From the IMG/VR virus record IMGVR_UViG_3300009177_000136, positions 1 through 20,622 of that record: a DNA stretch of 20,622 nt. One strand, written 5' to 3'. Both the position numbers and the translations under genes were made by a program. This DNA is from a virus. Every line of letters starts with the position of its first letter. The first letter of the stretch is position 1. Shown in pieces: positions 2,773 to 17,287 of this stretch. The notes under the pieces were generated by a model that saw only the letters and a list, made by a program, of their open reading frames with translations, made no database searches and had not been told where the DNA came from.

Positions 2773-3165
2773 ATGGAAAGCCTAGCCGATCACGAACTGA
2801 AAAACTGGAGTCGGTGGTGCAACAGCGGCGCGCTGCCGCATCCGCTTCCGCCGAGTCGGTGTGCCTCACTGGAGAGCCGATACCTACCAGAAGCCTTGCA
2901 TGCAGCAGCAGAAGACGCGCCGCCGCCGATTCACGTAGACAACGCCAAGCGCGTGCAAACGGTATTCGATTCGGCAGTCACAATCGAGCGCAAAATCCTC
3001 CAAGCTGAGTACCTGTCGCCGTGGCAATACTCTCGCTACAGCGGGGGCATCCCAGCGGCAGTGAGAAAGATCAATAACATTGATCCGGATGTGGGGCTAA
3101 GCGTGGCGGCATACGAAACAATCCTGGCCAGTGTGAAGCGTCGAGTAGAGAGGATTTTTTCGTGA
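2773..3165 (+). CDS. Phage protein at the late-regulator (Q) position, 130 aa
   Basis: The frame opens with MESLADHELKNWSRWCNSG and contains a central helical region (AKRVQTVFDSAVTIERKILQ, about 59-78) and a C-terminal VAAYETILASVKRRVERIF helix. This layout resembles short beta-proteobacterial phage proteins that I think belong with Q-, RinA- or ArpU-like late transcription regulators, but I cannot see a decisive motif. Context supports the idea: it follows ninG and precedes a tRNA and the packaging genes. The ribosome-binding site is weak (GCGGGG). Its stop overlaps the next gene. Confidence 0.6.
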   Translation: MESLADHELKNWSRWCNSGALPHPLPPSRCASLESRYLPEALHAAAEDAPPPIHVDNAKRVQTVFDSAVTIERKILQAEYLSPWQYSRYSGGIPAAVRKINNIDPDVGLSVAAYETILASVKRRVERIFS

Positions 3166-3489: not shown

Positions 3490-3562
3490 AGCGAGGTAGT
3501 GTAAAGGCTGCATATCGGGCTCATAACCCGAAGGTCCGGTTCGAATCCGGCGATCGCTTCCA
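3490..3562 (+). tRNA. tRNA with CAU anticodon (Met-type, or Ile if modified), non-canonical
   Basis: A cloverleaf of 73 nt including an encoded CCA can be drawn. The anticodon stem TCGGG/CCCGA (3515-3519/3527-3531) encloses the loop CTCATAA with anticodon CAT at 3522-3524. The T arm has the TTCGAAT loop with a 4-bp CCGG stem. The D stem GTGT/GCAT has two G-U pairs and a short GG-containing loop. The acceptor pairs AGCGA with TCGCT, but its last two pairs are mismatched. CAU anticodons read Met, or Ile AUA when lysidine-modified. Variable loop, T stem and acceptor all depart from the usual form. The hairpin terminator right after it supports a transcript ending here. Confidence 0.7.
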
Positions 3563-3606: not shown

Positions 3607-3792
3607 ATGCGCTCCACTGCTCTCCCCTCGCGTTCATATCGCGACCCGATGGAAGTGCTTGAGGAAAAGCAGCAGCGCGCCCAGCGAGAATCGCGGAGAG
3701 TCGGCGAAGAACTCGGCAAGCGCTGGTCCGCAGCACGCGAGGCCGCGGAAGCTTTGTTTGATCTTCCGGGCCAGAAAAGCATCCGCGAATGA
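3607..3792 (+). CDS. Small coiled-coil hypothetical protein, 61 aa
   Basis: After an Arg/Ser-rich start the protein is highly charged and helical (MEVLEEKQQRAQRESRR then ELGKRWSAAREAAEALF), consistent with a short coiled coil. There is no clear ribosome-binding site at 3607 or at the in-frame ATG at 3649 (residue 15), so the start is uncertain. No family recognised. It begins just past the tRNA terminator and would need its own promoter or antitermination. Confidence 0.45.
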   Translation: MRSTALPSRSYRDPMEVLEEKQQRAQRESRRVGEELGKRWSAAREAAEALFDLPGQKSIRE

Positions 3793-3848
3793 TGCTTTTG
3801 ACGCGCATTCCTCGCCTCAACGCCTGAAACGTTAGGCAAACCGCCCAC

Positions 3849-4163
3849 ATGAAGACATTCCCGATTCTGGATTCCTGCGTTCGCCGCTGCCGTGAACAGC
3901 ATTTCCAGTCGCCGCTTGGCGTGTCGTTCGATCTGGTCAAGCGCCATGAGCAGCAAGCCTTTACGAATCACAGCCAGAGCGTCGAGCGCCTTGCTGAGCG
4001 CGGCGGCTTGTCATGGTTCGAATTGCTCATGGTCATCTCCGACAAGGGTCCGCGTGACGAATACTGGACCCGAATCGAAGGGATGAAACTCACCGAGGCT
4101 GAGCTATTTCGGATCGTCTCGATCAGCATGATGCATGAGTTCAGTAACGCGTATTGCCGATAG
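3849..4163 (+). CDS. Hypothetical phage protein, 104 aa
   Basis: The frame encodes a soluble, mixed-charge protein with segments such as GVSFDLVKRHEQQAF (24-38), SVERLAERGGLSWFELL (44-60) and LTEAELFRIVSISMMHEF (80-97), giving the look of a small all-helical protein. Composition and hydrophobic pattern look genuine and the other strand gives only low-complexity frames, but no clear ribosome-binding site precedes the ATG. Function unknown. Confidence 0.6.
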   Translation: MKTFPILDSCVRRCREQHFQSPLGVSFDLVKRHEQQAFTNHSQSVERLAERGGLSWFELLMVISDKGPRDEYWTRIEGMKLTEAELFRIVSISMMHEFSNAYCR

Positions 4164-4318
4164 TACTTGGGCCTAGCCATCCCCTGCGGCACAACAGGCT
4201 GCCTCCACCGAGGCGCTTCAGAGTTTGGGCTGATTCTGCGACCAAAAGTTGGGCATTGCGATGCCGGTCGGCTCAAGCTCTGAGGGTGAATTCGTAGAAT
4301 TTATGGCGAGATCCGGTC

Positions 4319-4554: not shown

Positions 4555-4746
4555 ATGACCGTTATCGTTACCGTTGAATGCCCGGATCAGCCAGTCAAGG
4601 TGCTGGTCCGCGAATGTTTTCCTTACCCGCAATCAGATGCGCCTCATTGGGTTCGGCGCAACGAGAAGGCAACTTTCTCGGTCTGGTCCGGCAAGACTCT
4701 GGCTATTGAAGAATGGCCCGAGGACAAAGAGCCTCAAGATTCGTAA
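4555..4746 (+). CDS. Small hypothetical protein, 63 aa
   Basis: A strong AGGAGCAGGAA ribosome-binding site precedes the ATG at 4555. The protein begins with a beta-rich TVIVTVECPDQPVKVLV stretch and ends in an acidic EEWPEDKEPQDS tail. It could be a small beta-sheet protein. No family recognised. It is the last gene before the long noncoding RNA candidate, whose first helices start about 15-20 bases past the stop codon, so the RNA may be cotranscribed with it. Confidence 0.7.
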   Translation: MTVIVTVECPDQPVKVLVRECFPYPQSDAPHWVRRNEKATFSVWSGKTLAIEEWPEDKEPQDS

Positions 4747-5576
4747 CGGCAACAGTCGGGAGCAAAGGGGTGAAGCCGCCCCGCCCTATGGGTCCTAGGC
4801 TTGGGTGATACGCCAGTTCATAAGCCCAAAGCGTATCCGGTTCCGCACGAAACGCGGGCTTTATCGATACTCGATTGCCGATTGCGACTACGCGGTTGGG
4901 GTACGACAGTCGGGTATCAAGAGGTGAATGCGCGCAAGCGCTAGGCTCAATACCGAGCCAAGCCAGCCAATAGCGTCCCCGGCGAAAGCTGGATCCACTA
5001 GGGCGACACCGCGAGATTGGCGCGCGGCACTTTCGAAGCCTCGCTGCACCGGGGCTTTCGTAAGGGGTGGTTGCAGCCACCCTGGGTTTTGATTCACTGC
5101 TTCACTGCTACTTCATTAGCGTTCCCAGGATCGTCGTGAGACGTACCGCAGTACGCCTGAGCTACGGCTCGGGCCTTCATGAATCACGATTGGATCAGTC
5201 CGTATAGCAGCGCAAGCGAAGCACGGGAAATCCAAAGACGCCGACAACTGTTGAGGCGTACCAGTCGTGATTCACGAAGGTAGGTAATCGCACAGGTGCA
5301 AAGAGATATCCCCGACACGCCGGGTAGTCAGCTGCGTGTAGCCTGGCTGGCTCAACCAGCCGCTTCATAGCGTGGTCTGCGTTGGGATCGTCCGGAAGTG
5401 CCCCGATGCCGAAGTGGAGTCATGACCCGCCGGTCTACGGGCCACGCTATGAGGGCGAAATCCAGCGACGCGCGCGCCGATTGGCGGGTAAGTGCCCATG
5501 CGGTCGCCAAAGTAGTTCTCAACCTGTCTCCTCTTGACCCTTCGTCAAGGTTTGCTCGCTTCGGTGGGCAATTTTT
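4747..5576 (+). ncRNA. Giant structured noncoding RNA candidate, about 830 nt (GOLLD/ROOL-like in size and setting)
   Basis: No credible gene covers this stretch, yet it is full of paired arms. Local hairpins include 4767-4772/4777-4782; 4866-4877/4907-4918 (12 bp) enclosing 4878-4886/4891-4899 (9 bp); 4930-4933/4938-4941 (GCAA loop); 4944-4948/4955-4959; 4979-4983/4988-4992 (GAAA loop); 5036-5043/5050-5057 (8 bp); 5064-5071/5076-5083; 5142-5146/5151-5155; 5156-5162/5167-5173 (UACG loop); and 5345-5350/5356-5361. Two long helices close large domains: 5174-5193/5261-5280 (19 bp with one A-C mismatch) and 5364-5375/5442-5453 (12 bp). A UUCG-capped terminator ends it. Giant phage RNAs such as GOLLD and ROOL have this size, no ORF, and tRNA-adjacent positions. 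Whether this is a member, a new class, or an outlier is not decidable by eye. The 5' end is approximate and no promoter was found. Confidence 0.75.
5552..5576 (+). terminator. Intrinsic terminator with UUCG loop, 3' end of the long RNA
   Basis: Bases 5552-5559 pair with 5564-5571 (8 bp, including two G-U pairs) around a TTCG tetraloop, followed directly by five T at 5572-5576. A second 6-bp hairpin (CTTGAC with GTCAAG, 5533-5538/5544-5549) lies just upstream. This marks a defined transcript end 13 bases before the next gene's start codon. Confidence 0.85.
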
Positions 5577-5589
5577 ATTCGAGCGTCCG

Positions 5590-5805
5590 ATGGCAGCGCG
5601 AAAGCCGAAAGTGATTCCGGTCGAGCCGGTCGAAAACTGCCGCGAATGCCGATGCAGCAAGATGATTCCTGGCGATGGGCTGTACTGCCGCAGGTATCCG
5701 CCGAAGTTGGTGTATGACGCCAGCACGGGGCTGAATGTGGCCCGCGATGTGGAAGTGAACCCGACGCACTGGTGTGGCGAATTTTCTCCGCACCTGAGTT
5801 CGTAA
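5590..5805 (+). CDS. Small Cys-rich protein, 71 aa
   Basis: Translation from the ATG at 5590 gives a basic N-terminus, then CRECRC (Cys at about 17, 20 and 22), a further Cys at 33 in GLYCRRYPP, and HWCGEF near residue 62. The five Cys and one His suggest a small zinc-binding or otherwise metal-stabilised fold. The open frame extends further 5' but that part lies inside the RNA terminator and long RNA, so the short start is preferred; the ribosome-binding site is weak (GAGCG). Similar short Cys proteins occur in phage genomes without known function. Confidence 0.65.
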   Translation: MAARKPKVIPVEPVENCRECRCSKMIPGDGLYCRRYPPKLVYDASTGLNVARDVEVNPTHWCGEFSPHLSS

Positions 5806-5983: not shown

Positions 5984-7153
5984 ATGAACGTAGACGACAA
6001 TTTGCGCTCATGGGCCACGGTTCGCCAACTCGAGATACTTGAAGCGGTCGAGAAATACGGCACGCAACGGGCTGCTGCTGAGGCGCTTGGTGTCGCACAT
6101 GGCACTGTAGGCGACTCGATGAAGGCGCTGAAGAAGAAGGCGGCGCGCGCAGGGTATTCTCCGGAACACGACAACAGCCACTCTGTACCTGACGGATTTA
6201 GGCTTAAAGGCACGTCGACGCTGTACGACGCAGACGGTAACCTTAAGCTTCAGTGGGTCAAGTCAACAATCGACCATGAGCGGGCTGATGAAATCGCCCG
6301 TCAGGCTGTTGAGGCGCTATCGAGAAGCGTGGAAGGGATGGCGCCGATAACGCCCGCTCCGCTGCGTGTGATGTCCGACCTGCTGGCCGTGTATCCGTTC
6401 GGCGACCCGCATGTGGGGCTTTACGTCTGGGCCAAGGAATGCGGCGATGCGTTCGACCTGGAGATTGGTCGGAAACTGACGCTAGGTGCTGTCGACCGCC
6501 TGGTAGCCACCGCACCTCCCGCAGAGACTGCGATCCTTCTGCTTCTCGGGGACGTGTACCATCAGAACGATCAGACCAACCAGACGCCAGCACACCGGCA
6601 CCAACTTGACGTCGATTCGCGTTATGTGAAGGTGCTGCAGGTAGGCATCGAGACTTACCGGCACGCCATTCTGCGCGCGCTGGAGAAGCACAACCGTGTG
6701 ATCGTCAAAGCCATCCCTGGTAATCACGATCCGCAGGCGATATGGGCGCTGATCTTCACGCTGGCGGCGTACTTCTCTAATGAGCCTCGCGTTGAGGTAG
6801 ACATTGGCCCCGCGAAGCATTGGTACTTCCGCTTCGGAAAGGTGCTGATCGGCTCGACCCACGGCGACACCACGAAGCATGAAAAGCTCGGTGGCGTCAT
6901 GGCGTGCGACCGCGCCAAGGATTGGGGCGAGACGCTGTACCGCTACTGGTACACCGGCCACATCCATTCGAAGACGGTCACGGAAGTGCCTGGCGTGATC
7001 TGCGAATCCTTCCGCACACTGGCGGCGCAGGATTCGTACGCAGCTGGGCATGGATATCGCGCTGGGCGGGACATGCTGTGCATCGTCCACCACCGCGACT
7101 ACGGCGAAATTGAGAGACACCGCGCAGACATTGCGCTATTGGAAGCGGCATGA
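5984..7153 (+). CDS. HTH-metallophosphoesterase fusion, 389 aa
   Basis: The C-terminal two-thirds is a calcineurin-like metallophosphoesterase with the full di-metal signature: GDPH at 140-143, LLGD at 187-190, GNHD at 246-249, HGD at 293-295 and GHIH at 325-328. The first 55 residues form a helix-turn-helix (RQLEILEAVEKYGTQRAAAEALGVAHGTVGDSMKALKK in part), so the protein probably binds DNA. The family includes phosphatases and Mre11/SbcD-type nucleases, so a DNA-processing role near packaging is possible. The start has CGGAG 5 bases upstream. Linker residues 60-125 are low in motif content. It leads the packaging operon and overlaps the next gene by ATGA. Confidence 0.88.
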   Translation: MNVDDNLRSWATVRQLEILEAVEKYGTQRAAAEALGVAHGTVGDSMKALKKKAARAGYSPEHDNSHSVPDGFRLKGTSTLYDADGNLKLQWVKSTIDHERADEIARQAVEALSRSVEGMAPITPAPLRVMSDLLAVYPFGDPHVGLYVWAKECGDAFDLEIGRKLTLGAVDRLVATAPPAETAILLLLGDVYHQNDQTNQTPAHRHQLDVDSRYVKVLQVGIETYRHAILRALEKHNRVIVKAIPGNHDPQAIWALIFTLAAYFSNEPRVEVDIGPAKHWYFRFGKVLIGSTHGDTTKHEKLGGVMACDRAKDWGETLYRYWYTGHIHSKTVTEVPGVICESFRTLAAQDSYAAGHGYRAGRDMLCIVHHRDYGEIERHRADIALLEAA

Positions 7154-13204: not shown

Positions 13205-13528
13205 TTACTGCAGTGGCTTGTATTCCTTTGGTCCGCTCAGACAGTAATCCAGCATCTGCTTCTTTAGCGCGAATCCGCCAGCGTTAGCAAACCGGTCATC
13301 GAAATAGACCGTGTTGATGATTTTTTTGAAGTCTACGTCGGAAATAAATCGGCTTCGATAGGCGCCCAGGAATTTCGCTGCGTCCTGCGGCGATTGATTG
13401 TGGTCGCGCATATCCGCTGCGCCGCGATAAAGATCGGCCTTGAGCGCGCACGCCGAAACGTCATCCTGCGTTACCGCAAAAACAGAAGTTGATGCAACCA
13501 GCATCAGCAAAGCAAAAACGGTTTTCAT
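13205..13528 (-). CDS. Secreted small protein, 107 aa (moron candidate)
   Basis: Minus-strand frame. I choose ATG 13528 because AGGAAAG sits 5 bases upstream; ATG 13540 is part of that site. Residues 1-18 ([18 protein letters not shown]) are a textbook Sec signal peptide with likely cleavage after SVFA. The mature protein of about 89 residues has two Cys (about 27 and 96), able to form one disulfide, and an aromatic [18 protein letters not shown] segment. It abuts the previous gene tail to tail. A periplasmic protein among head genes on the opposite strand suggests lysogenic conversion, for example fitness or superinfection exclusion. Family not recognised. Confidence 0.75.
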
Positions 13529-13611
13529 CTCTTTCCTCATTCGCCCTTGGCGATAGTTTTAACTCGTTGATCCTACAACGGAAGCCCGCGTTAGTGCGTG
13601 CTTTTCAATAC

Positions 13612-17199: not shown

Positions 17200-17254
17200 C
17201 CGCGCGCCTAGAGTCATTCTCAAAAACCGGCTGACCGTACCGGCTGGCGCGCGG
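17200..17254 (+). other. Strong GC hairpin after the capsid gene
   Basis: CCGCGCGCC (17200-17208) pairs perfectly with GGCGCGCGG (17246-17254). The loop contains two copies of ACCGGCTG 5 bases apart. No T run follows, so it is more likely an mRNA-stabilising or processing structure than an intrinsic terminator. Confidence 0.5.
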
Positions 17255-17287
17255 CCCCTCTTTCGGTCATTCATATAGGCGGTCAAT

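Follow-up and report, generated by a model that had tools for sequence, protein, structure and literature searches.

The locus and its gene content

The window, by which we mean the whole stretch of DNA analysed, is a 20,622-base virus record that carries genes for NinG, an exonuclease, a metallopeptidase, a terminase and a portal protein. Between the stop codon of one of its genes at position 4746 and the next ATG at 5590 lies a gap without a plausible gene, as the first-pass annotation had claimed; the chance open frames present in the window are not conserved, and a search for a conserved protein frame over the RNA core described below found none that stays open beyond 12 of the 36 family members. 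Positions 4748–5576 encode a structured non-coding RNA that ends in an intrinsic terminator (Table 1). This RNA lies between NinG/tRNA and exonuclease/terminase, on the strand of the downstream genes; the tRNA said to be situated about 1.2 kb upstream is indeed there, a tRNA-Met, and no promoter was found just upstream of the RNA. A frequent gene order among members is the homologue of the ORF at 3607, the RNA, its terminator, the Cys-rich ORF, the exonuclease and the terminase.

The dense folding reported earlier for this region is borne out by a minimum free energy of −355.9 kcal/mol for positions 4740–5585 (z = −3.36 versus 20 dinucleotide shuffles). A helix scan recovered the long helix previously drawn at 5174–5193/5261–5280, while the helix at 5364–5375/5442–5453 proved to be part of a longer one of 16 bp at 5363–5378/5439–5454 (P_A). 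The intrinsic terminator that had been described as clean consists of a stem and a T-run, and a T-run is found 3′ of the core in most members.

Elsewhere in the window, a 130-aa ORF (2773–3165, + strand) has no Pfam or PHROG match; it resembles Q-type antiterminators by eye and gives a weak BLASTP match (E 0.002) to a gene of Xanthomonas phage PBR31 annotated as Q. An int-alpA RNA (RF02996) scores above the gathering threshold at 17201–17267 (+ strand), between structural genes, and another is present in L137 close to the core of the new RNA. A lone ORF on the reverse strand (13205–13540, − strand), which seems to encode a signal peptide, sits within the forward structural block and is a possible moron.

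Table 1. Features of the locus, with positions counted along the window
Feature	Position	Strand	Remarks
tRNA-Met(CAU)	3490–3562	+	1.2 kb upstream of the RNA
Related upstream module A	4153–4300	+	M3 element 4153–4207; P_A helix 4216–4231/4270–4285; GAGGGUGAA
M2 5′ domain	4748–4857	+	Homologous in L085, L104, L100
P_A-like module B	4860–4924	+	Helix 4860–4874/4910–4924, then UGAA; scan score 16.0
P_A-like module C	4976–5067	+	Helix 4976–4990/5053–5067; scan score 16.0, weak alone
P_A-like module D	5174–5280	+	About 19 bp, CUUC..GAAG at base; score 18.2
P0 hairpin	5344–5362	+	UGGCUGG-CUCAA-CCAGCCG; immediately before P_A
P_A helix	5363–5454	+	5363–5378/5439–5454; about 16 bp; closes variable hairpin domain
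Core	5451–5520	+	R1 match, 45 loci, covariation
P1	5451–5456/5515–5520	+	Core
P2	5465–5469/5503–5507 and 5471–5474/5499–5502	+	Core
P3 hairpin	within 5451–5520	+	Core; GCC-GAUU-GGC
P4 hairpin	within 5451–5520	+	Core; GGGU-AAGU-GCCC
C/U-rich linker and small hairpin	5521–5551	+	AACCUGUCUCCUC; CUUGAC..GUCAAG; UCUCCU recurrence
Intrinsic terminator	5552–5576	+	Stem 5552–5571, then T-run
Small Cys-rich ORF	5590–5805	+	Follows the RNA; many members conserve it
DNA repair exonuclease	5984–7153	+	phrog_704; locus marker

Relatives in phages and prophages

When the entire region was compared by blastn with the phages and plasmids in GenBank, no match emerged, and four other members searched against phages gave no convincing one. 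Loci around the downstream exonuclease served as the starting set. Another phage, L011, shares a single 34-base match with the window, in the same orientation and likewise upstream of the exonuclease. A pattern derived from the window and L011 led to further contigs, upstream elements led to more, and a core alignment of seven sequences yielded the covariance model R1. The match of R1 to the window (E = 4.9e-20) is that of a training sequence; matches outside the training set include L009 (with L006 and L010) and L107. In genomes of Burkholderiaceae, the family to which Chitinasiproducens palmae belongs, R1 also located three prophage copies, each 5′ of a distant exonuclease; independent members that the model found in bacterial genomes, 5′ of the exonuclease, include L124, L122 and L121. 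With two looser patterns added, the collection reached 45 loci and 36 distinct sequences; these come from phage contigs in IMG/VR and from prophages of Burkholderiaceae, and many were outside the training set. The prophage copies support the earlier guess that the host belongs to the Burkholderiales.

Since the pattern scans require conserved bases in P3 and P4, the member set is biased towards certain letters there; this bias hardly touches the pairing changes seen in P2, in the stem of P3 and in P_A. Thirteen matches from a scan of genome contigs with the window-type P4 hairpin were rejected, as no flanking core was visible by eye and most looked protein-coding. A pattern search in 369 genomes of the wider class produced four matches, none of which was confirmed by the model.

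The genes 3′ of the RNA differ among members and can be the Cys-rich ORF, a tail spike-like gene, a gene for a tail-like protein or a tRNA gene. A second group of members has the RNA ahead of genes that look tail-like by eye, and in L126, L130 and L152 it precedes tail-like or unrelated genes. Upstream tRNAs are present in the window, L009, L082 and L144, and a tRNA directly follows the core in L121 (at 4 nt) and L153 (at 11 nt). About six members (L009, L138, L133, L161, L135, L082) have a gene start 16–27 nt past the core, and no terminator was found in them.

A constant 3′ domain with a two-partner strand

The 3′ domain (5344–5576) defines an RNA family that is absent from Rfam at E-values up to 10. 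Its constant part begins at the 5′ side with the P0 hairpin, followed by P_A and then by the core with P1–P4; the domains upstream of it are mosaic. A P0-like hairpin is clear in the majority of members, and one with a score of at least 7 occurs in 47% of them versus 6% of shuffles. The window possesses the covarying P1–P4 core with its C-GAUN-G hairpin, in which the covarying pairs of P3 are closed over GAUN, and P_A lies directly upstream of this core and ends in GARGG. Past the core, most members continue with a linker rich in C and U, then a small hairpin and the terminator; the motif UCUCCU is found at most 175 nt from the core in 17 of the 36 members, usually 6 nt past it and mostly beside a terminator.

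Covariation, which the first-pass annotation had named as a check on its helices, is strong among the homologues. The seven-sequence core alignment contains 15 compensatory cells versus 4.4 ± 1.7 in shuffles. With 36 sequences, 95% of the cells pair and 87 are compensatory, as compared to 24.7 ± 4.0 in shuffles and 1–24 in slid controls, in an alignment whose fitting to the model favours the structure; RNAalifold recovers the core on it. When column pairs were scored all against all (4950 pairs), the top ten scores all fell on proposed P_A or core pairs. P_A was identified outside the R1 model, and it scores at least 16 in 34 of the 36 members versus 26 of 2186 background sites (1.2%) at the same loci. 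Its pairs are kept in 89.6% of cases versus 58.5 ± 2.3% with partners swapped (36 members), the former value being inflated by the choice of the best-pairing partner.

One strand, GARGG, serves P_A as its 3′ base and P1 as its 5′ strand. It pairs with an upstream CYUUC (P_A) and a downstream CYUYC (P1) in nearly every member, and one molecule cannot hold both pairings. Position by position, it is paired upstream in 88–100% and downstream in 97–100% of 33 members, and its position 3 varies with both partners. The two pairing states of the window's 3′ domain were calculated at −93.0 and −93.6 kcal/mol, a difference within error; over 4741–5576, the P_A state is favoured (−352.9 vs −344.1). The mutual exclusion of P_A and P1, together with their near-equal energies in the window, makes a two-state fold of the GARGG strand likely in these predictions. 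Both helices end before 5521 and do not overlap with the terminator stem at 5552–5571; an alternative pairing that includes this stem, as in a riboswitch-like attenuator leader, was not found in the window.

Mosaic upstream modules

The M2 domain at the 5′ end of the RNA contains a long-range helix (GCAACAGUC../..GGCU..UGAUAC), a hairpin GGGG-UGAAGCCG-CCCC and another with the loop ACGAAAC; compensatory change affects 6 of its 26 pairs among four sequences, and an R2 search is further evidence for M2. In L100 (1887–2015, minus strand), and also in L102 and L103, M2 is present without a recognisable core; copies of the L100 type may be decayed or may belong to a different 3′ domain. The M3 element is placed directly before P_A and the core in L011 and L106 and lies 1.3 kb upstream in the window as part of module A, which is 80% identical to L011 5498–5552, a segment that adjoins the core there. 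The helix of module A is perfect and P_A-like, with a score of 18.6 that none of the 2186 background sites reaches. M4 occurs in other members and is absent from the window. In L126, the RNA core is followed by a tail-spike-like gene and this in turn by an M4 element (3825–3888), a hint that a phage can have several RNA loci. The modules lie at differing distances from the core among phages, and M2, M3 and M4 are exchanged between phages.

The stretch 4860–5340 is mostly particular to the phage of the window and is without covariation support; thermodynamics and internal repetition are what speak for it. No background site among the 2186 reaches a score of 18 and hence that of module D, and module B is weak on its own because 26 of these sites attain 16.0. 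With two strong extra P_A modules (4216–4285 and 5175–5279) and two weaker ones, the 830 nt of the window represent an expanded version of an RNA for which simple members need about 200–250 nt. The single 830-nt unit proposed in the first-pass annotation persists as a structured, terminated RNA, but a constant 3′ domain with exchangeable, duplicated upstream modules describes it more aptly; within its limits, 5344–5576 and M2 are conserved, whereas 4860–5340 is mostly phage-specific and a related module lies outside, at 4153–4300.

The element M1, common to L011, L085 and L107, was discarded as part of the RNA and corresponds to the 5′ end of a small gene. A conserved leader of about 130 nt (GATAGTTCTGATGGA..AGGAA) precedes the small gene MKTFP.. 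and is found at L011 5365–5497, L085 8613–8745 and L107 about 740–890; the gene itself is missing in L011 and L085, where its leader is retained.

Comparison with known RNAs

A search of all 4227 Rfam families revealed no relative of the RNA, either with the window or with its relatives. The GOLLD and ROOL models gave no match at E-values up to 10 in the full window, the short stretch or L104, and in 18 relatives neither reached the gathering score; no Rfam match was obtained for ribozymes either, whether hammerhead, HDV-like or other. Literature searches, which covered few subscription journals, yielded no description of the family. The initial view of a large, structured and terminated phage RNA near tRNAs is thus upheld, covariation included; of its two options, a distant GOLLD or ROOL member or a new class, the former finds no model match and the latter stands.

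GOLLD forms a homo-oligomeric cage (14-mer), and its expression goes up during lysis. It has a variable 5′ and a constant 3′ part, is phage- or prophage-borne and often exceeds 0.8 kb (PMC12286853), as compared to about 0.83 kb here; the constant 3′ domain, the variable 5′ part, nearby or contained tRNAs and the location in phages were all found for the new RNA as well (PMC12286853). The latter differs from GOLLD in its conserved core, its Burkholderiaceae hosts, the shuffling of modules and the two-partner strand. T4 stable RNAs C and D are non-tRNA RNAs in the tRNA region of a phage; they recall the proposed nature of the new RNA as a stable non-tRNA molecule among phage tRNAs but are much shorter, and homology was compared through Rfam. 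In lambda, the segment with pR′, 6S RNA and tR′ lies between the early-late control genes and the late genes. By position, between early-late control and late genes and with an intrinsic terminator at its end, the new RNA resembles 6S RNA and StxS, yet it is far more elaborately folded and precedes tail-like genes in several relatives. StxS originates from the pR′–tR′ region in Stx phages, and its binding targets are the stx1B ribosome-binding site and rpoS (PMC7873438). ROOL is likewise a large structured phage RNA near tRNA islands (PMC12286853), but its model does not match, and we did not find it described as a mosaic with exchangeable 5′ domains.

Proposed function and alternatives

Most likely, by analogy, the RNA functions as a stable, structured molecule that acts in trans and is released by termination or processing. 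It would be transcribed on the + strand along with the segment of tRNA and small genes that precedes the late genes, and ended at 5576 by its own terminator; in relatives, it may be released beside a tRNA. It would then accumulate as a stable molecule and act through its fold, as has been surmised for GOLLD and ROOL. P_A would be the first helix to form during synthesis, and once the core is complete, P1 could replace P_A at its base through strand exchange, leading either to an early and a mature fold or to an exchange of the GARGG strand between two molecules. An own terminator in most members combined with differing downstream genes favours an RNA with a role of its own, and we infer action in trans from this variety of downstream genes and from the fact that the terminator takes part in neither pairing state. 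For the explanation as a whole, in which the new family with its constant 3′ domain and mosaic 5′ domains works in trans by such a mechanism, our confidence is evenly balanced. It is doubtful, though conceivable by analogy, that the constant domain swaps its strand from one helix to the other, inside a single molecule or from molecule to molecule, and that copies with shuffled 5′ domains build an RNA-only complex around or next to the phage tRNAs.

The strongest rival to action in trans is a cis-acting leader of the late operon, in which the choice between P_A and P1 would alter downstream termination or translation, or in which the RNA would modify RNA polymerase as do the HK022 put RNAs, which cause processive antitermination in cis. 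The position, which is that of lambda pR′, 6S RNA and tR′, the constant orientation on the strand of the downstream genes and the conserved two-partner strand all suit such a leader; the six or so members in which a gene starts shortly past the core look like 5′ leaders, and a possible Q-type ORF (2773–3165; weak similarity, E 0.002) is present. However, neither pairing state overlaps the terminator stem, the element past the core may be a terminator, a tRNA or an ORF, tail-like or unrelated genes follow in L126, L130 and L152, and the Q family PF06530 does not exceed the cut-off in any record, whether the RNA is present or not. We regard this leader as somewhat unlikely, albeit a reading to be taken seriously.

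Rather improbable is a phage sRNA of the StxS kind, whose C/U-rich linker (UCUCCUC) would pair with ribosome-binding sites of target mRNAs while the fold confers stability. The recurrence of UCUCCU in 17 of 36 tails and the precedent of StxS (PMC7873438) fit this idea, but the linker sequence is not universal, the window's coding strand holds no perfect GAGGAGAC, and neither the elaborate covarying junction nor the modular 5′ half would be needed. A divergent GOLLD or ROOL member is very improbable: the phage location, the tRNA close by and the layout of a variable 5′ and a constant 3′ part recall GOLLD (PMC12286853), but neither Rfam model matches in any of the searches. Just as little credence is given to a structured DNA or repeat element, such as mobile hairpins or recombination sites, with no role as RNA; modules that recur at varied distances from the core and are duplicated in the window would fit it, whereas G-U pairs, strand-specific terminators, constant orientation and a covarying branched core point to RNA.

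To our knowledge, very few classes of large structured phage RNAs have been recognised, and what GOLLD and ROOL do has yet to be established. The RNA described here adds a further family, unrelated to these two and from another host group, whose prophage copies in bacterial genomes would permit genetics; the shuffling of its modules between phages and its conserved two-partner strand provide testable features.
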